64,000 bases of DNA from Aggregatilinea lenta (GTDB lineage Bacteria > Chloroflexota > Anaerolineae > Aggregatilineales > Aggregatilineaceae), in the NCBI RefSeq assembly GCF_003569045.1, contig NZ_BFCB01000004.1:124001-188000 (forward strand), in the 5' to 3' direction. The first letter of the stretch is position 1. The number at the start of each line of letters is the position of its first letter. Below, piece after piece: positions 25,878 to 33,668 of this stretch. The notes below the pieces were generated by a model. That model had not been told where the DNA came from, ran no database searches, and saw nothing but the letters and a program-made list of their open reading frames with translations. The position numbers and the translations under genes are program-made.

Positions 25878-27623
25878 CTATTCTTCGCTGGCCTGTTCGT
25901 CGAGGAACTTCTGGCGGTTGGCGGCGCGGGCGACCTTGCCGCTGGACGTCTTCAGCAGCCACTTGGGGCCGACGAGGTGCACGTAGCGCGCCATGACATC
26001 GGCGGTTTGCACGATGCGAGCGCGGATCTCGCGCCCGATCTGCGCCTGCTGCTCGATGTCTTCGGTTTCGACTTCGCACACGACGGCGATATCTTCGGTG
26101 CCAAGCTGGTCGTTAGGCACGCCGAAGGCGACGACGCGGCCCGGATGCACGCCGGAGATGTCGTTCAGCGCGTTTTCGATGTCCTGCGGGTAGATATTCT
26201 TGCCGCTGTTGATGATCAGGTCCTTCTGGCGCCCGGTGATGTACAGCTCGCCGTCCGCGACGTAGCCCAGGTCGCCGGTGAAGAACCAGCCGTCCGTGAT
26301 GGCCTGTTCCGTGGCTTCGGCGCGGTGATAGTAACCGGAGAGCATACAGTCGCCGCGCAGCGCGATCTCGCCCACGTGACGCTCCGGCAGGTCGTGCCGC
26401 TCGGCGTCTACCACGCGGATCGTCGTGTTGGGGATCGGCGCGCCGCACGAGACCATCTCCACCGCCGGGCGATCGCCCTCGGCGGGGCGGGCGACGCGGG
26501 CGGTCATTAGCGTGTCGCGATCCACGACGTCCACGTGGGGCGGCTGGCCGACCGCGCTCTGCGTCACGGCGAAGGTGTTTTCGGCCATCGCGTAACACGT
26601 GGCGAGCGCTTCAGGGCGCAGACCGTAAGCTGTGTAGCGCTCGGTGAAGGCACGGTGACTGTCGGCACGGACCGGCTCGGAGCAGTTAATCACGGCGCGC
26701 AGGCTGGTCAGGTCCAGCCCTTCGAGCGCGGACGGGCGCACGCGCGTCGCCAGGAAGCTGTAGGCAAAGTTCGGCAGCCAGCACAGCGTCGCGCCGTACT
26801 GCTGGATCGCGTGCAGCAAAATGGCCGGTTCGCGCACCCAGTGGAAGGGCGACATCAGCACCAGCGGAATGCCCTGCACGATCGGAGTGACAAAGCCCGC
26901 GATGAGGCCCATATCATGGTAGAGGGGCAGCCAACTGGCAATTACGTCATCGGGCGTGAGACGGATCGCGTGGCTGTAGGCCGCCACCTGATTCAACACG
27001 GCGCGGTGGGAGAGCATCACGCCTTTTTGCAGGCCGGTGCTGCCTGACGAATGCTGTAAAAACGCCGTGTCGTCGGGTCCGGCGGGCATGCGATCCAGGT
27101 AATCGTCGAGCGATCCGGCAGGCTCCAGGTCCGCCACGTTGAGGATCGCGCCCAGCGTTGGGATGTCGCGCAGATGCGCTTCGAGGGCAGGCTGCTGGTC
27201 CGGGAAGGTAACGACGGCCTTGACCTCCGACAGCTCGACCAGCGCGCGCACGCTCTCGTAGTAGCGGTCGGGGTCGAGCTTGGGCGTCAGGAACGGGAAA
27301 ATCGACGGGATCGCACCCAGCAGCATCGCGCCCCAGAAGGCGTGCAGCACGTCTGGCCCGTGCTGGAGCACCAACACGACCAGATCCTGCGGGCCGACGC
27401 CCGCTTCTTCCAGCGCGTGGGCATAGCGCGCGGCCTCGTCAAAAAAGGCGCGGTAGGTAAGGGTAGCGTTTCCGTCAGGCGTGATCAGCGTCACCGCAGT
27501 ATGATCGCCGGAATGCAGCGCCAGCGCGCGCGCGCTGGCGATCAGCGTCGCGGGACGGTGGTCAAGTCGAATTGGGAGCATTGGGTGAGTTTCCAGACTG
27601 GCCGAAGTGCCCATAATGACCAT
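25878..27623 (-). CDS. Fatty-acyl-AMP ligase (FAAL-like AMP-dependent synthetase)
   Basis: 581 residues. Adenylation motifs include FLQHSSGSTGLQKGVMLSH (A3), YGLRPEALATCYAMAENTF (with A5-like region), TGDLGYVADGELYITGRQKDLIINSGKNIYPQDIE (A7-A8) and a C-terminal lysine region. The FLQHSSGSTG and MAENTF forms are typical of FAALs, which activate fatty acids for transfer to an acyl-carrier protein or polyketide synthase rather than to CoA. No carrier or PKS gene is nearby. An internal ATG (residue 15, 27581) is an alternative start. Confidence 0.85.
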   Translation of the reverse strand: MVIMGTSASLETHPMLPIRLDHRPATLIASARALALHSGDHTAVTLITPDGNATLTYRAFFDEAARYAHALEEAGVGPQDLVVLVLQHGPDVLHAFWGAMLLGAIPSIFPFLTPKLDPDRYYESVRALVELSEVKAVVTFPDQQPALEAHLRDIPTLGAILNVADLEPAGSLDDYLDRMPAGPDDTAFLQHSSGSTGLQKGVMLSHRAVLNQVAAYSHAIRLTPDDVIASWLPLYHDMGLIAGFVTPIVQGIPLVLMSPFHWVREPAILLHAIQQYGATLCWLPNFAYSFLATRVRPSALEGLDLTSLRAVINCSEPVRADSHRAFTERYTAYGLRPEALATCYAMAENTFAVTQSAVGQPPHVDVVDRDTLMTARVARPAEGDRPAVEMVSCGAPIPNTTIRVVDAERHDLPERHVGEIALRGDCMLSGYYHRAEATEQAITDGWFFTGDLGYVADGELYITGRQKDLIINSGKNIYPQDIENALNDISGVHPGRVVAFGVPNDQLGTEDIAVVCEVETEDIEQQAQIGREIRARIVQTADVMARYVHLVGPKWLLKTSSGKVARAANRQKFLDEQASEE

Positions 27624-27817
27624 AATAGAGTATGGAATGGATGCATCGTTCGGGACGTGAGGTAGTTCCAGGCAGGGGAATTATACCCGGTTCTGATGAA
27701 TGAACCAGCCGTTCTGGCGGGCGAGACGAAACCACTCTTTATTGATTGCAGGAGCACGGTTTACGAACCTAAACCCGATTTGATATGCGTGGTAGCCCGC
27801 AGTGAGGAACGCAGGAG

Positions 27818-29827
27818 ATGAACGAGGAAAGCAACTACGCGGCACAGTCCGAAGCCCGCGAGAAATGGAATACTGCCCGGCGGCGCGCGTTTTACGAGCG
27901 CCTGTCGAGCACGCTTGGTTTTGCCAAGCGCCCCGCCAGCTTGCTGTCCTTCGAAGAAGTGCAGAACAAGCTGCGTCTGACCCAAAGCAACTATCGCGGC
28001 CTACATCAGGTGCCACTCGATCAAATCGTGGGCAGTGTAGGGCGCTATAACGACTTCACTCGCACGTTTCTACCTCTGATCGAGGACGACAGTTGGCGCT
28101 GGCGGCGCGTTGCCGAGATACAGGTCAACGAAGGACTGCCACCCATTGAGCTGTACAGGGTAGGCGACGCGTACTTCGTCAAGGACGGCAATCACCGCGT
28201 CTCGGTAGCGCGGCAGTTCGGCGCGACGTCGATCGAGGCGTACGTCTGGGAGTACGAAACGCCGGTGGGCGGCATCCGCCCGACCACCAACGTCAACGAG
28301 CTGATCGTCAAGGCCGAGTACCGCGAATTCCTGGACCGGACGCGGCTGGATATCTCCCGGCCCGAACAGAACATCGTGCTCACCGAGCCGGACACCTATC
28401 CCGCGCTCGAAACGGAGATCGAGCTGTACCGGCGCAACCTGGAGCGCATCGACAGCGAAAAGCGCAGCTTCGAGCATGCTGCCGCCGCGTGGTACGATAT
28501 GGTCTATACGCTGGCGGTGGACGTAATCCGCGAGTCCGGCGTGCTGGACCTGTTCCCGGGCCGTACCGAAGCCGACCTGTACGTGTGGGTGTCGCGCAAC
28601 CGGCGCGAGTTGGCCGAGCGCTACGGACAGCGCGTCTCGATGCGTGATGCGGTGTCGCTGCTGGTCGAAACACAGCAGAAGCCGAGCACGGTGGAGCGCA
28701 TGATGCAGTCAGTAGGGCGCTCGGTGGCCGGACTGGTGCAGAGCCTGCGTCCGGTGGAAGCCGAGGAGAAGCCCGACTCCAGGCCGCCTGTCTCCCAGGA
28801 CGATCCGCTGGGCAAGCTGCTGGCACAGGTCGAGGGCTATCAGGCGGAGCTGAAGTATGAGGGGCAGCGCGGCGACGACTGGCGCTGGTGGCGCGGCGAA
28901 GTGCGCGGGAAGCTCTGGGAGCTGCTGGGCGCGACGTATACGCCCGCCGAGGATGTCGAGGTGGAGATCCAGGATCGCGCGCTGATCAGCGGCGTGGAGC
29001 GCTTCCGCCTGATGCTGACCGCTGGCGACGGGCTGCGCCTGCCGGGCTACCTCATGCGTCCGGCGGACCTCAAGAAGCCTGCGCCGGGGCTGCTGGTCTA
29101 CCCCGGCCACGGCGCGATTGCGCAGACCGCCGGGCTGGAATACAGCTTGCAGCGGGCCAACGCGCTGGCGCTGGCGCAGGCCGGATATGTCACCCTGACC
29201 CTCGAGGAGCGCGGCTTCGGTGAGCTGTCACGCGCCGACCACGTCGCGCTGGATAACATCGCGCGGCTGGTGGGGCGTACGTGGCTCGGCATCACGATCG
29301 AGGACGGGCTGCGCGCGCTGGACTACCTGCAAACGCGCGAGGACGTGGCACCCGATCACCTGGGCGCGACCGGCCTGGGACTGGGCGGCGGGCTGGCGCT
29401 GTATTCGGCGGCGCTGGACGAGCGCATCCGCGCGGTTGTGATCGAAAATTACGTGGGCGGCGACATCGACCTGCTGCACGTGCTCGGTCACGGCTGCGAC
29501 TTCGTGCCCAATCTGCGGCGCTTCCTCCATCTTTCGGATATAGCGCGCACAATTGCCCCGCGTCCCGCGTTGTACGTGTATCCCCAGGGACGCGAGGCGA
29601 CCACGCTGGCGCATCGCGCCTGGGACGGTGCGCGCCCGACCTACGAGACGTTTGGCATTCCCGACCGGACGCGCTTCGTCGAGCACGACCGGGGCGACCG
29701 CTACGTGCGGACGGTGGCGAAGAACTGGTTCGACCGCTGGCTGGCCGAGGAGCCGGATACGAGCGTGCTGCTGTGGGCGCCCCGTGAGGACATCGTGCCA
29801 CGCCAGGTGAAGCGGAAGACACGGTAG
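27818..29827 (+). CDS. ParB/Srx-like domain fused to an alpha/beta-hydrolase domain with lost nucleophile
   Basis: 669 residues from ATG 27818. Residues ~95-150 carry IELYRVGDAYFVKDGNHRVSVARQFG, the DGNHR motif of the ParB/sulfiredoxin fold. A long helical region (~150-330) follows. From ~385 there is an acetyl-xylan-esterase/dienelactone-hydrolase-like fold (LLVYPGHGAIA, TLEERGFGELS). Where the nucleophile elbow should read GxSxG the protein has TGLGLGGG, with Gly521 (codon GGA, 29378-29380) replacing Ser. The acid-bearing loop (LYVYPQGREAT) also lacks an obvious Asp, though EHDRGDRY retains a His. A non-catalytic or repurposed role is likely. Confidence 0.7.
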   Translation: MNEESNYAAQSEAREKWNTARRRAFYERLSSTLGFAKRPASLLSFEEVQNKLRLTQSNYRGLHQVPLDQIVGSVGRYNDFTRTFLPLIEDDSWRWRRVAEIQVNEGLPPIELYRVGDAYFVKDGNHRVSVARQFGATSIEAYVWEYETPVGGIRPTTNVNELIVKAEYREFLDRTRLDISRPEQNIVLTEPDTYPALETEIELYRRNLERIDSEKRSFEHAAAAWYDMVYTLAVDVIRESGVLDLFPGRTEADLYVWVSRNRRELAERYGQRVSMRDAVSLLVETQQKPSTVERMMQSVGRSVAGLVQSLRPVEAEEKPDSRPPVSQDDPLGKLLAQVEGYQAELKYEGQRGDDWRWWRGEVRGKLWELLGATYTPAEDVEVEIQDRALISGVERFRLMLTAGDGLRLPGYLMRPADLKKPAPGLLVYPGHGAIAQTAGLEYSLQRANALALAQAGYVTLTLEERGFGELSRADHVALDNIARLVGRTWLGITIEDGLRALDYLQTREDVAPDHLGATGLGLGGGLALYSAALDERIRAVVIENYVGGDIDLLHVLGHGCDFVPNLRRFLHLSDIARTIAPRPALYVYPQGREATTLAHRAWDGARPTYETFGIPDRTRFVEHDRGDRYVRTVAKNWFDRWLAEEPDTSVLLWAPREDIVPRQVKRKTR

Positions 29828-29949: not shown

Positions 29950-32814
29950 TTATTCGGCGGGCGGATCAGTCGGTGGATCGCTGGGTGGGGCGTCGGTCAG
30001 GCTGCGGCGGAGGTCGGCGAGGAGAGTGCGATCTTGTTCAAGGTTAGGGTTTCCGATTGCTTCGCCAATGGCAATGTGCCGCTCGAGGTAGGAAATGGCT
30101 ACGGCGGTCTGGCCGAAGGCGTTATGCAGTACCACAGCAATGTTATTGCAAGCGATTGCTTCTCCGGCGCGATTACTGACTTCGCAGTGGATGGCTAGTG
30201 CTTGCTGGTAGAGGTCGAGGGCGCGCTCGTGCTGGCCCTGTTTGTAGTACACGCCCGCAATGTTGTTGAGGGTGGTGCCCTCCATCACCCGATAGTTTAT
30301 TTTTCGATGAATGTCTAGCGCCTGACGGAACATATCAAGTGCGCGCTTGTGTTCACCTAGCGTGTCATACACGAGGGCAATATTGTTAAGCGTTGTCCCT
30401 ACTGCTGCTTGGTTCCCCGAAGCATGACTGATGGCTAACGCTTGCTCGAAGAGGTTAAGGGCCTGCTCATATTGGCCGAGTTGACGGTAAGCGTCGGCAA
30501 TGTTGTTAAGTGTTGCGCTTTCCCCATCACGATCATTGACTTCGCAACGGATGTCTAGTGCTTGGTAGAAATAGTCAAGGGCTTGCTCATATTGACCGAG
30601 AACGCCGTAGATGCCCGCGATATTGTTGAGGATTGTGCCTTCCTTGGCGCGGTTATGCAATTCACGGCAGATTGCTAGTGATTGCTGATAGAAGTCAAGG
30701 CCACGCGCATACTGACCAAGACGGTGGTGTGTCAGAGCAATGTTGTTGAGTACGGCACTCTCCCCGATTCTGTTGCCCACTTTGTGCGCTGTTGCCAAGC
30801 TATGGTTGTAAAAGGTGAGAGCAGCGTCCGAGTTTCCCTGACTGTGATGCCATAATCCAAGCTCATTGAGAAATGTACCCTCTAAAACATGGCTATCCCT
30901 TACCCGCGCGCAAGCCAACCCCATTTGTAACCAGCGCAGCCCTTCTTCACCTGCACGGCGGCGGAAGATATAGTCCTTAACTGCTTCCGCAAACGCCTCG
31001 CCGCGCTCAAGGAGGGCCTGAGCCATGCGGGTGTCGGTGTCGATCTCGTCCAGCAGATCGTCGGGCGGATCGGGCTGGGCAAGGTCTTCGAGCGGCACCG
31101 CGCCGAATACGATCCCCTGCAAGTAGCCCGCCAGCGCGTTGCCGACGTGATGCACGTGCGGCAGGTCCGGGCCGATGATCGCGTCCCACTGCTCCATCGG
31201 CAGCGTCTCGAACTGCCCCGCGATGTCGTGAATGACGTGCCACGTATAGCGTCCCAATGCCCGGTCGTGCTCGTTCTCGCGCGTCGCCAGCGCACGGGCA
31301 TAGGCGTGCAGCAGCAGGTGCTGGCGATAGCGGCCCGTCTCCGGCTCGTGCACGATCAGGCCCGCGCCTATCAGCGCCGCCAGCGTATCATACGCCTCGT
31401 CAAGCGCGCTCTCGTCGGCGGGATCGACGTCCCAGGTGGCGAAGGCCGTACGCGCAGAAAACGACTCCTCCGGCGCGAGCACGCCCAATGCGCGAAAGGC
31501 TGCTTTCGCGTCGGGCGAAAGTGGCGCGTAACTCAGGTAGAGCGTCGCTTCCAGACTGTCGTCGCGCTCGGTGCCCTGGCCGAGATCCAATGCGCGGAAC
31601 GGCGTTGCCTCGCTCAAGTAATAGGGTAAGCGCCTGACGAGACGCTCCGCAAACGCGATGCCATGCGTCACAATCTGGCGGGCGGCGAGATCGAGCGCCA
31701 GCGCATGCCCGCCGAGCTGATCCGCGAGCGCGCGCAGTGAATCGACGTAATCGCCGGGCGCGAGGCCCGCCGCGCTGAGGCGATCCCGCAGCAGGGCGCT
31801 GCCGTCGTCCGTGTCGAGCGGTCCGAGCGCATGGATTTGTCCCAGGACAGCAACCTGTCGGGACCGTGTGGTGACCAGCACGGCGGTCCCGTCGGGCAGG
31901 GCCTTGAGCAGATCGCGCACCGGGCCAGGGAACCATGCGTCGTCGAGCACGGCCAGCAGGCGTCCCGGTGCCTGGGCCAACAGGGCGCGGACTGCGTCCG
32001 ATGAGAGATCGGCGGGATCGAGCGTGCGGCCTGCAGGGTGCGCCTGCGCCCACGCGCGGAGAATGGCGGGCGTCACTGCCGGGGCGCGTTGCGCTTCCGG
32101 GCCGAGCGTGGCCCACAATACGCCACCGGGGAAGTCGCCGCCCAGCGCGCGGGCGAGGTGCAGCGCGAGCACGGTCTTGCCCATGCCACCCGCACCGTCG
32201 AGGATCACCGGGCGATCGGTTTCGCGCAGCAGGTCGCTCACGGCGCGCACGTCCGCCGCGCGCCCGACGAATCGCGCAGCGGGCAGCGGGGCGGTGGGGC
32301 GCCGCCAGCCGGTCGGTGAATCGTCCGGGGCGCGGTGGGTCGCGTGATACAGTGCCGCCATGACCTTCTGTGCCAGATCGTCGGGGGTGGTGAAGGTCTT
32401 ATAGAGGGGTTCGCCGTCGAAGCTCGCCTTGAACGCCTTCAGGCGGGACGCGCCCGGCTCGCCTTCGACGAACTCTGGCGGCCACTCGTGGGACTCGTCC
32501 ACAAAGAAGCACAGCCGGGGAATGCCACGCGCAGTCGCCCAGTCATATTCGAGCGCGGTGATCGAGCGTTCGCCGTCGCCGCCCTGCGTATCCGTGGGAA
32601 CCCAGCCGTAACGATGCGCATAGATGCCGACCAGAAAATCGGCGTCGTGCAGATAGTGCTGGCAGGTATGCACGGCGGCGGCATCTTGCGCGGGGAAGTG
32701 CTCCATCATGATCGGGTGCAGGCCAAGCTCGCGTAGGGCGTGATCGACCGCCGCGCGGTGCGCGCGCAGATCGTCGCTGGTGGAACTCACAAACACAGCG
32801 TGCGGGCGGTTCAT
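29950..32814 (-). CDS. DUF4062 - NB-ARC - TPR STAND protein
   Basis: 954 residues. Residues 1-150 match DUF4062 (HAVFVSSTSDDLRAHRAAV, YLHDADFLVGIYAHRYGW, ALEYDWATARGIPRLCFFVD), a TIR-like Rossmann fold. An NB-ARC NTPase follows with Walker A GAGGMGKT (residues 207-214) and Walker B LLAVLDDAW, then a winged-helix/arm region. The C-terminal ~290 residues hold seven near-identical 40-residue TPRs of the form NNIAxxYxxLGQYEQALDxYxQAL. This is NLR-like architecture: TIR-like effector, oligomerising NTPase and sensor repeats. GGAG sits 6 bases before the ATG. It starts 30 bases after the DarA paralogue and is likely in its operon. Confidence 0.88.
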   Translation of the reverse strand: MNRPHAVFVSSTSDDLRAHRAAVDHALRELGLHPIMMEHFPAQDAAAVHTCQHYLHDADFLVGIYAHRYGWVPTDTQGGDGERSITALEYDWATARGIPRLCFFVDESHEWPPEFVEGEPGASRLKAFKASFDGEPLYKTFTTPDDLAQKVMAALYHATHRAPDDSPTGWRRPTAPLPAARFVGRAADVRAVSDLLRETDRPVILDGAGGMGKTVLALHLARALGGDFPGGVLWATLGPEAQRAPAVTPAILRAWAQAHPAGRTLDPADLSSDAVRALLAQAPGRLLAVLDDAWFPGPVRDLLKALPDGTAVLVTTRSRQVAVLGQIHALGPLDTDDGSALLRDRLSAAGLAPGDYVDSLRALADQLGGHALALDLAARQIVTHGIAFAERLVRRLPYYLSEATPFRALDLGQGTERDDSLEATLYLSYAPLSPDAKAAFRALGVLAPEESFSARTAFATWDVDPADESALDEAYDTLAALIGAGLIVHEPETGRYRQHLLLHAYARALATRENEHDRALGRYTWHVIHDIAGQFETLPMEQWDAIIGPDLPHVHHVGNALAGYLQGIVFGAVPLEDLAQPDPPDDLLDEIDTDTRMAQALLERGEAFAEAVKDYIFRRRAGEEGLRWLQMGLACARVRDSHVLEGTFLNELGLWHHSQGNSDAALTFYNHSLATAHKVGNRIGESAVLNNIALTHHRLGQYARGLDFYQQSLAICRELHNRAKEGTILNNIAGIYGVLGQYEQALDYFYQALDIRCEVNDRDGESATLNNIADAYRQLGQYEQALNLFEQALAISHASGNQAAVGTTLNNIALVYDTLGEHKRALDMFRQALDIHRKINYRVMEGTTLNNIAGVYYKQGQHERALDLYQQALAIHCEVSNRAGEAIACNNIAVVLHNAFGQTAVAISYLERHIAIGEAIGNPNLEQDRTLLADLRRSLTDAPPSDPPTDPPAE

Positions 32815-32844: not shown

Positions 32845-33117
32845 CTAGAAGTGTGTGAACTGGTCCGCGTTGAGGACGAAGATCGTCGCGTTGTGGTCGG
32901 CTTCGCCTTCGGGCGTGGGAATCGTCTCGCGGAAGATATTGAGCGCCGCCTCGATCTGGTCTTCTTCGACGCCGATGAGCACGGTGGTGCTGCCCTTGCG
33001 CAAAAAGCCGCCCGTGCTGCTCAATTCGGTGACGCGCAGCCCGGCGTCGAGCAGCCGGGGACGCACTCGTTCTTCGCTATCGCCGCGCAGGATGGCAAGG
33101 ATCAGTTTTGTCGTCAT
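32845..33117 (-). CDS. Cyclic-di-AMP receptor, DarA/PstA (YaaQ) family, paralogue 2
   Basis: 90 residues of the PII-like fold. It carries the family pattern LILAILRGD, STGGFLRKGSTTVLIGVEEDQ and the C-terminal TIFVLNADQF, seen in DarA/PstA proteins that bind c-di-AMP as trimers. The T-loop region is shorter than in the first paralogue (deleted between RETIP and ATIF). The start overlaps the first paralogue's stop by 4 bases. Ligand binding is inferred from family only. Confidence 0.86.
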   Translation of the reverse strand: MTTKLILAILRGDSEERVRPRLLDAGLRVTELSSTGGFLRKGSTTVLIGVEEDQIEAALNIFRETIPTPEGEADHNATIFVLNADQFTHF

Positions 33118-33440
33118 ATCTGCTCGAATCGCTCCACGTTCAGCACAAACACGGTCGCGCCGCCGACTTCGACCTCGACAAACGCGCCCATCATCGCCGC
33201 CGATTCGACGATGTTAGGGCCAGCGGGGATCAGGCGCGTGCGGCGTTCGCATGTTTCTTTGAGCATGCCTAACAGCGCACCGACCCGGTGATCCTCCACG
33301 CCGGCCAGCAGCGTGGTGTTGCCCACGCTAAAAAATCCGCCGGTGCTGGCCACCCGCGTGATGCGATATCCGGCATCGGTCAGGGCCTTGCTGGTGCGCT
33401 CAGCGTCCTGGTCTTGGACGATGGCAACGATCAGTTTCAT
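33114..33440 (-). CDS. darA: Cyclic-di-AMP receptor DarA/PstA (YaaQ) family, paralogue 1
   Basis: 108 residues from ATG 33440, with GGAGG 5 bases upstream. The N-terminus MKLIVAIVQDQDAERTSKAL and the TGGFFSVGNTTLLAGVED block closely resemble Bacillus YaaQ/DarA. A long flexible T-loop (RRTRLIPAGPNIVESAAMMG) is followed by VEVEVGGATVFVLNVERF. The family senses c-di-AMP and relays it to unknown targets. First gene of a probable darA-darA2-STAND operon. Confidence 0.9.
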   Translation of the reverse strand: MKLIVAIVQDQDAERTSKALTDAGYRITRVASTGGFFSVGNTTLLAGVEDHRVGALLGMLKETCERRTRLIPAGPNIVESAAMMGAFVEVEVGGATVFVLNVERFEQI

Positions 33441-33470
33441 TCGTCCTCCGTGGTGGGACCTCTCACGCGC

Positions 33471-33500
33471 AGTGTAGCACAGAATTTGGCCCACCAGCAA
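33471..33500 (-). promoter_or_regulatory. Candidate promoter of the darA-STAND operon
   Basis: Minus strand TTGCTG (33500-33495), 18-base spacer, TACACT (33476-33471), giving a start about 25 bases before the ATG. The -35 is weak. Confidence 0.4.
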
Positions 33501-33668
33501 TTGTGTATTGTTACGCAAGCGGAAACCGTTGGGAATAATCGCGGCTTTTGCTTATAAAAGTATAAATTGTAGCGAACTTTCCGTATTCTCTTTTAATCTT
33601 ATATTAATTGTGTTTCGCTATTATGTAAGCATCCTGTCATACAACGTGATCAAGTATACTAGAATGAG

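Follow-up and report, generated by a model that had tools for sequence, protein, structure and literature searches.

The window, that is, the whole stretch of 64,000 nucleotides analysed here, carries on its forward strand a gene for a protein of 669 residues (27818..29827). The reading frame starts with ATG at 27818 and is uninterrupted. Its product, the fusion protein, is conserved in a group of uncultured Chloroflexota and combines a ParB/sulfiredoxin (Srx)-like module, a helical part, a linker and a pseudo-alpha/beta-hydrolase. The ParB/sulfiredoxin-fold domain (residues about 57-153; 27986..28276) was assigned from residues 48-144 of the N-terminal model, which align to ParB, Noc, Srx, SerK and SbnI. 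It contains a DGNHR motif (residues 123-127; 28184..28198), a putative phosphate-binding loop. The helical part (residues about 159-290; 28292..28687) is made of helices in the models, and the same stretch is matched by Pfam DUF4032 in relatives. It is followed by a variable linker (residues 301-344; 28718..28849) with low identity among the family members and low pLDDT. The pseudo-alpha/beta-hydrolase domain (residues 345-657; 28850..29788) completes the protein. All of these features lie on the forward strand. Compared with 11 family members, the window protein is 28-45% identical in the linker and 68-78% in the N-terminal part. Full-length orthologues are 62-68% identical to the window protein, and the homologue at locus L045 is 45% identical. 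The window genome has a single full-length copy, plus one match of 30% identity to the hydrolase half. The full-length model was of moderate confidence (pLDDT 60.6, pTM 0.46).

The divergent neighbour of the fusion gene is an acyl-AMP/acyl-CoA ligase-like gene on the reverse strand (25878..27623; Pfam AMP-binding, 1.7e-65). Its best NCBIfam matches, long-chain-fatty-acid-CoA ligase and fatty acyl-AMP ligase, were both below the cut-off. This gene was found upstream on the opposite strand at all 12 family-type fusion loci with enough upstream sequence; it lies within 300 bases at 10 of them, at 3.2 kb in L042 and at 1.1 kb in L043. At 10 loci, hypA, hypB and hypF come after it. The intergenic sequence (27624..27817) is the divergent promoter region. 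ATTATA at 27680-27685, the reverse complement of TATAAT, occupies the same aligned place in 11/11 intergenic regions, and from its sequence it is best read as the -10 element of the ligase-like gene. An operator for the fusion gene was considered and rejected, since the conserved intergenic element reads better as this -10 box. By inspection, no conserved inverted repeat was seen in the intergenic region.

Downstream of the fusion gene, two genes of the cyclic-di-AMP receptor family lie on the reverse strand (32845..33117 and 33114..33518; Pfam CdAMP_rec, 1.1e-16 and 1.1e-36, respectively). One or two such convergent genes were present at 12/12 family-type fusion loci with downstream sequence, and in L042 they also occur beyond the ligase-like gene. 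In the window, a gene for a protein of 954 residues with DUF4062, NB-ARC and TPR domains (29950-32814, reverse strand) stands between the fusion gene and the receptor genes. Since it was unmatched at 18 compared loci, several of them short, it may be a lineage insertion. Because several loci are closely related, the ligase and receptor context is a family-wide synteny and should not be counted as 12 independent events. It is missing from the outgroup fusions L045 and G426 (L089); a gene of the GDPD family lies upstream in L045 (6.3e-36). Neither gene type was found beside the sister stand-alone proteins at 15 loci or at L046, several of these contigs being short. The conserved neighbours give a hint of acyl and/or nucleotide second-messenger physiology.

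The hydrolase half is recognizable from its sequence. Within residues 389-546 of the window protein, Pfam AXE1 (3e-7, 30 bits) and Abhydrolase_7 (9.7e-6, 25.5 bits) were matched above the cut-off of 21, and DLH was just under its threshold (20.9 bits, cut-off 21). Searched with the whole protein, NCBIfam gave only the UilS lactonase, far below cut-off, and one chance-level match. The closest folds of the modelled C-terminal half are the putative acetyl xylan esterase 3g8y (Z 23.3, rmsd 4.5, 291 residues) and 3nuz (Z 23 over 302 residues), at identities of 18-19%.

The catalytic residues of this fold are lost. The preliminary description of the locus had placed a Gly where the family has the nucleophilic Ser, and the sequence confirms this: codon 521 is GGA (29378-29380) and lies within ATGLGLGGGLA, of which GLGLGGG (29372..29392) is the nucleophile elbow. 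In the predicted structure, of moderate confidence, a strand (510-520) is followed directly by a helix (522-533), which is the geometry of a nucleophile elbow. Since this strand-turn-helix places the elbow at 521, the model gives no sign of a nucleophile elsewhere.

To read the triad, 18 distinct fusions (duplicates and the gapped L062 were removed) were aligned with 20 stand-alone hydrolases. The acid and His loop columns were read by eye from the alignment, and L060 stops before both. Position 521 is Gly in 14/18 fusions, Arg in three (L032, L041 and L087) and Ser in L061 alone, whereas the stand-alone relatives have Ser in 19/20. Since Ser is missing in 17 of the 18 distinct fusion sequences, a sequencing error is unlikely. 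The acid loop (residues 581-597; 29558..29608), read PRPALYVYPQGREAT in the window protein, is without the Asp that all 20 stand-alone relatives hold, as the preliminary description had also noticed; among 17 fusions, only L045 has Asp at this position. To the losses of Ser and Asp, which were all that it had named, we add that of the catalytic His. The loop expected to hold this residue (residues 615-627; 29660..29698) reads VEHDR-GDRY in the window protein, and His is present in 19/20 stand-alone relatives and in 1/17 fusions, again L045. A complete Ser-Asp-His triad was found in 0/17 fusions readable at all three sites, versus 19/20 stand-alone proteins. In the window's family, all three residues are lost in 15/15 readable members. 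Thus, the sequences confirm that the hydrolase half has an acetyl-xylan-esterase-like fold without the catalytic triad.

Two outgroup fusions differ from the window's family. L061, a more distant homologue (47% identical), retains Ser, but Arg stands where the His would be. In L045, Asp and His are retained, and Gly at 521 is followed by Ser at 522. All 19 fusion rows of the C-terminal tree fall on one side of a branch with support of 99/100; L062 is represented there by one fragment, its other frame having been left out. L045 is outermost, followed by L061 with the L062 fragment and then by the window's family. From these residues and this order, the triad was seemingly lost stepwise, and differently by lineage. 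Since L061 keeps Ser, and L045 keeps Asp, His and a shifted Ser, residual chemistry is possible in the outgroup fusions. As a separate observation, the stand-alone hydrolase L077 has Gly at the nucleophile position and Asp at the His place, and is a second pseudo-hydrolase, distinct from the fusions.

The codons of the hydrolase half were then compared. Five closely related pairs (dS below 0.75) gave dN/dS values of 0.041, 0.098, 0.110, 0.111 and 0.047; three of these pairs were formed among L036, L038 and L040, so that they share sequences. Against the window protein, omega was 0.27-0.41 for ten family members, 0.12 for L035 and 0.47 for L045, all at high dS. In such comparisons with family members, the N-terminal half changes more slowly (omega 0.13-0.20). 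Judged by the close pairs, the hydrolase half is under purifying selection.

The fusions also share residues of their own. D479, R483, W489 and L470 are each present in 18/18 fusions and 0/20 stand-alone hydrolases, I434 in 18/18 and 0/19, and D474 and H475 in 17/18 and 1/20. Many of these residues fall in the stretch 474-489 (29237..29284), where the alignment of fusions with distant stand-alone proteins is less certain. H431 is retained in 17/18 fusions, and 89 positions of the hydrolase half are conserved with at most one exception. The five invariant residues are also found in L045 and L061. Since these two proteins still bear parts of the triad, the new role seems older than the final triad loss, and the alignment suggests that it predates the last losses.

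These results agree with the pseudo-hydrolase proposed in the preliminary description: the triad is lost in 15 readable family members, purifying selection acts on the domain, and new invariant residues have appeared. On the conservation of Gly521, which was to be checked in orthologues, the counts given above favour the proposal. Two findings would have spoken against it, Ser in close homologues and a nucleophile placed elsewhere by structure prediction. Among the fusions, Ser was found only in the more distant L061, and the pseudo-hydrolase reading stands because this lone Ser-bearing protein has Arg at its His place. The model retains the elbow at 521.

The N-terminal half is more difficult to classify. 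In the window protein, ParB_N (PF02195) gave no match at E up to 1 with the whole protein or up to 10 with the first 321 residues, where no Pfam family was found even at E 10. DUF4032 (PF13224) likewise does not match the window protein itself. The ParB/Srx assignment comes from the profile matches of relatives, weak PHROG matches and the structure search, not from Pfam on the window protein. Among 29 relatives, the window protein included, DUF4032 matched 19 (E of 1 or lower; best 4.6e-11), ParB_N matched two weakly (best 0.029), and the SerK model NF053625 matched four weakly (best 0.025), the window protein not being one of them. Two ParB-like PHROG profiles matched 26/29 and 24/29 (E of 1 or lower; lowest 1e-4 and 6.4e-6). 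The window protein itself matched an unnamed PHROG (9e-4) and, weakly, a ParB-like one (0.056). In a PDB profile search, the matches to inositol monophosphatase (E 0.31) and sulfiredoxin (1.3) were not significant.

The N-terminal half was also modelled alone, with moderate confidence (pLDDT 70.2). In Foldseek, the best 50 of 121 rows consisted of ParB, Noc, KorB, PadC, Srx, SerK and SbnI chains together with 1vk1, a conserved hypothetical protein; the best E was 1.3e-3. The best VIA-align row was ParB 7bnk (Z 8.0, 79 residues, 3.5 A), a Z that may mean a common arrangement, and Srx 6ky4 gave Z 7.7 over 82 residues at 3.8 A. The first clearly unrelated row appeared at rank 37 (Z 3.0). The VIA-align rows also include 2hwj, a hypothetical protein. 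Osa and 1vk1 are presumably members of the ParB/Srx fold group. For the helical part, VIA-align gave no clear structural match, and such an absence does not argue for a novel fold; Noc 7ol9 aligns into this part at 8.1 A rmsd only. Taken together, a ParB/sulfiredoxin-type fold of the N-terminal half is supported by the model and by the profile matches of relatives, in line with what the motif had suggested at first sight.

The motif itself is strongly conserved. In the 67 rows of the N-terminal tree, the window protein included, DGNHR was found in 64 and DGHHR in three; a distant relative in Collinsella, fused to a Bmp domain, has EGNKR in its place. We take DGNHR to be similar to the phosphate loop of SerK and Srx. 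A motif of phosphate-contact type is thus intact in 67/67 rows, which is at most compatible with the active ParB-like domain that the preliminary description had envisaged. The GxxR P motif of the ParB-CTPase fold has been described (PMC12704722, main text).

Homologues were collected as full-length sequences from named genomes and from the genomes of relatives. With the whole protein as query, a match was obtained in 194/400 genomes of the phylum, and among the matches listed the window's own is the sole one to extend over both halves. Within the family of the window, a near-full-length fusion lies on one contig in 12/17 other genomes, and the fusion is present, whole or in part, in 16/17. 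In G406, G408, G409 and G410, its parts lie at contig ends or are divided between contigs, G409 having only the N-terminal half up to the contig end. G405, with weak matches only, is the sole family genome without fusion parts. In other families of the order, the fusion occurs in 2/43 genomes, complete in G426 and with a gap of N in G419. In G420 (L098), the contig ends 47 bases past the match; this may be a cut fusion, and it was counted with the fusions when the N-terminal tree was tested. On the question of a single origin of the fusion, the C-terminal tree unites all fusion rows, as given above. In the N-terminal tree (67 rows), L045 groups with stand-alone proteins, but a single fusion clade was not rejected (p 0.089, for a group defined after inspection of the tree).

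The ParB/Srx-like module also exists alone, without a fused domain, and with other partners. From their translations, 14 of the 29 phylum loci were labelled as fusions to a universal stress protein (USP) domain, and these 14 form one separate clade (99/95). Pfam was run on eight of them, all from Chloroflexota (L003, L005, L007, L021, L025, L026, L028 and L029); Usp was found in 8/8, with two stretches in 6/8. A Collinsella plasmid protein carries the module together with a Bmp domain (3.9e-16), and a Subdoligranulum record contains a relative of this BMP fusion (631 aligned positions, 36% identity). The USP and BMP/PnrA-like domain families are binders of small ligands. Viral relatives were limited to six short, weak matches. 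Two further arrangements were observed among the stand-alone proteins. In L011:1426-2856 the helical part occurs twice, query residues 167-261 matching again at 333-426, and in L102 and L103 the ParB-like gene is present in two tandem copies.

Beside the stand-alone modules, a metallophosphoesterase gene was found repeatedly. It adjoins the module on the same strand in 10/11 members of one clade (L009, L011, L014, L015, L017, L019, L022, L023, L027 and L031); the eleventh, L020, has only 367 bases upstream, with no metallophosphoesterase match in them. It is also adjacent on the same strand in L110 and L112. In the USP fusion L003, it lies 1 kb off on the opposite strand. At 16 further loci among the 29 from the phylum, no metallophosphoesterase was found within the flanks, which are often 1.5 kb. 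Among six plasmid records with a module match, five were inspected. The module and a metallophosphoesterase stand side by side in those of Tsukamurella, Collinsella, Cetobacterium and Subdoligranulum, and in the Rubrobacter record the annotated metallophosphoesterase is about 2.7 kb from the module. The adjoining pair thus spans records of Chloroflexota, Actinomycetota, Fusobacteriota and Bacillota. Stand-alone or BMP-fused modules directly beside a metallophosphoesterase include those at L114, L115, L116 and L120. A search of the window locus and the listed fusion loci, whose flanks differ and are in part short, gave no such metallophosphoesterase; the window genome has one copy, on a different contig. 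Among the titles and abstracts searched, no description of a pair of ParB-like protein and metallophosphoesterase was found.

As judged from sequence comparison, the fusion protein is most likely a sensor or switch and not an enzyme. For a specific form of this, we see about an even chance that it is a switch dependent on a nucleotide, with a dead-esterase domain that binds, but does not cleave, a ligand. The N-terminal domain would bind a nucleotide through DGNHR, and the former active-site pocket would hold an ester-, acyl- or carbohydrate-type ligand, uncleaved. Binding of the ligand is predicted to alter the nucleotide-bound state, or vice versa, and the helical part may relay the outcome to a putative partner. 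In favour of this reading are the missing triad, the low dN/dS of close pairs, the fusion-specific residues, the ParB/Srx-type fold and profile matches, the conserved motif, the ligand-binding domains joined to the module elsewhere and the spread of the fusion through the family. Against it stand the moderate confidence of the models, the modest scores of the N-terminal fold matches, the triad residues kept in L061 and L045, the faster change of the hydrolase half in comparisons with the window protein, and EGNKR in the Collinsella relative. A wider proposal, which is tentative and somewhat doubtful, is that the ParB/Srx-DUF4032 module represents a class of soluble nucleotide-switch receptors, widespread but unrecognised, with lineage-specific binding domains (USP, BMP/PnrA-like or dead esterase). 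Some branches, perhaps ancestrally, would have a dedicated metallophosphoesterase, and the window protein would be a catalytic esterase turned ligand receptor.

The strongest rival is a kinase reading of the N-terminal half. This half would be a small-molecule kinase or phosphotransferase like SerK, SbnI or Srx, the dead esterase would hold or present the substrate, and the metallophosphoesterase of other branches would remove the phosphate. The structures of SerK, SbnI and Srx among the fold matches, the weak SerK matches in 4/29 members, and the metallophosphoesterase adjoining the stand-alone module in 10/11 members of one clade, in L110 and L112 and in four plasmid records are all in keeping with it. 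However, no position of the module could be assigned to a catalytic residue of these kinases, and the metallophosphoesterase was not found in the flanks, some of them short, of the window and listed fusion loci. We regard this reading as unlikely, though worth serious attention.

It appears improbable that the C-terminal domain has kept an enzymatic activity by means of another nucleophile or a water-activating residue drawn from the new conserved set. Polar residues are available for such a role, D479 and R483 being invariant, D474 and H475 nearly so and H431 kept in 17/18 fusions, and the outgroups retain Ser (L061) or Asp and His (L045). However, the elbow is Gly or Arg in 17/18 fusions, the whole triad is lost in the 15 readable family members, and the modelled strand-turn-helix makes position 521 the site of the canonical nucleophile.

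It is quite improbable that the N-terminal half is a ParB-like regulator that binds DNA, or a partition protein, with the divergent neighbour under its control. The fold matches do include ParB, Noc and KorB, with Noc 7ol9 reaching the helical part (8.1 A rmsd); the Tsukamurella relative is annotated as ParB, and the fusion and ligase-like genes are divergent at 12/12 loci. Against this, the window protein has no ParB_N match, the intergenic element reads as a -10 box with no conserved inverted repeat seen by inspection, and the examined sister stand-alone proteins are not adjacent to the ligase-like gene. A role in chromosome partition was rejected on the missing ParB_N match.

Finally, it is hardly credible that the hydrolase half is a decaying, functionless remnant: its triad was lost stepwise by lineage and it evolves faster than the N-terminal half in comparisons with the window protein, but decay of a useless domain is unlikely because close pairs show purifying selection (dN/dS 0.04-0.11), and the 89 conserved positions and the near-full-length fusion in 12/17 other family genomes also speak against it.

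Compared with known systems, the fusion protein has partial counterparts. Its C-terminal half shares the fold of the acetyl xylan esterase/Abhydrolase_7 proteins (PF05448, PF12715; 3g8y, 3nuz). Unlike that family, it is without the triad, is fused to a ParB/Srx-like module and has fusion-specific conserved residues. With the ParB/sulfiredoxin superfamily (ParB, Noc, PadC, KorB, Srx, SerK and SbnI) it has in common a loop of GxxR type and, at residues about 57-153, the fold, but it has no ParB_N match, and a DUF4032-like helical part and a pseudo-esterase are added. DUF4032 proteins (PF13224) are matched by relatives of its N-terminal half, whereas the window protein is below detection; no paper naming DUF4032 was found in a search that covered few of the subscription journals. 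NDRG and neuroligins are catalytically dead alpha/beta-hydrolases that serve as binding proteins. As here, the fold is kept and the triad lost, but they are eukaryotic and have no ParB/Srx partner, so that the likeness is in kind only.

The nearest published work is a survey of fusions of the ParB-CTPase fold to lineage-specific domains, some of which bind CTP, ATP or GTP (PMC12704722, 2025, main text). Like the fusions treated there, the window protein joins a ParB-type NTP-binding fold to a lineage-specific domain. The domain search of the survey, as given in the main text, began from PF02195, which does not match the window protein. Its main text contains no 'esterase', 'universal stress' or 'Chloroflex', and 'hydrolase' occurs only in the references. 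By titles and abstract openings, with few subscription journals covered, no description of the fusion was found elsewhere in the literature.

ParB-type NTP switches are known in many fusions, but the main text of PMC12704722 does not mention one with a dead esterase. If the proposed reading is true, a bacterial enzyme fold would have become a sensor for a ligand, with a nucleotide switch coupled to it, and steps of the triad loss would still be visible in the outgroup proteins L045 and L061. The findings also point to a broader ParB-like family, partly partnered with a phosphatase, that escapes the standard ParB profile.
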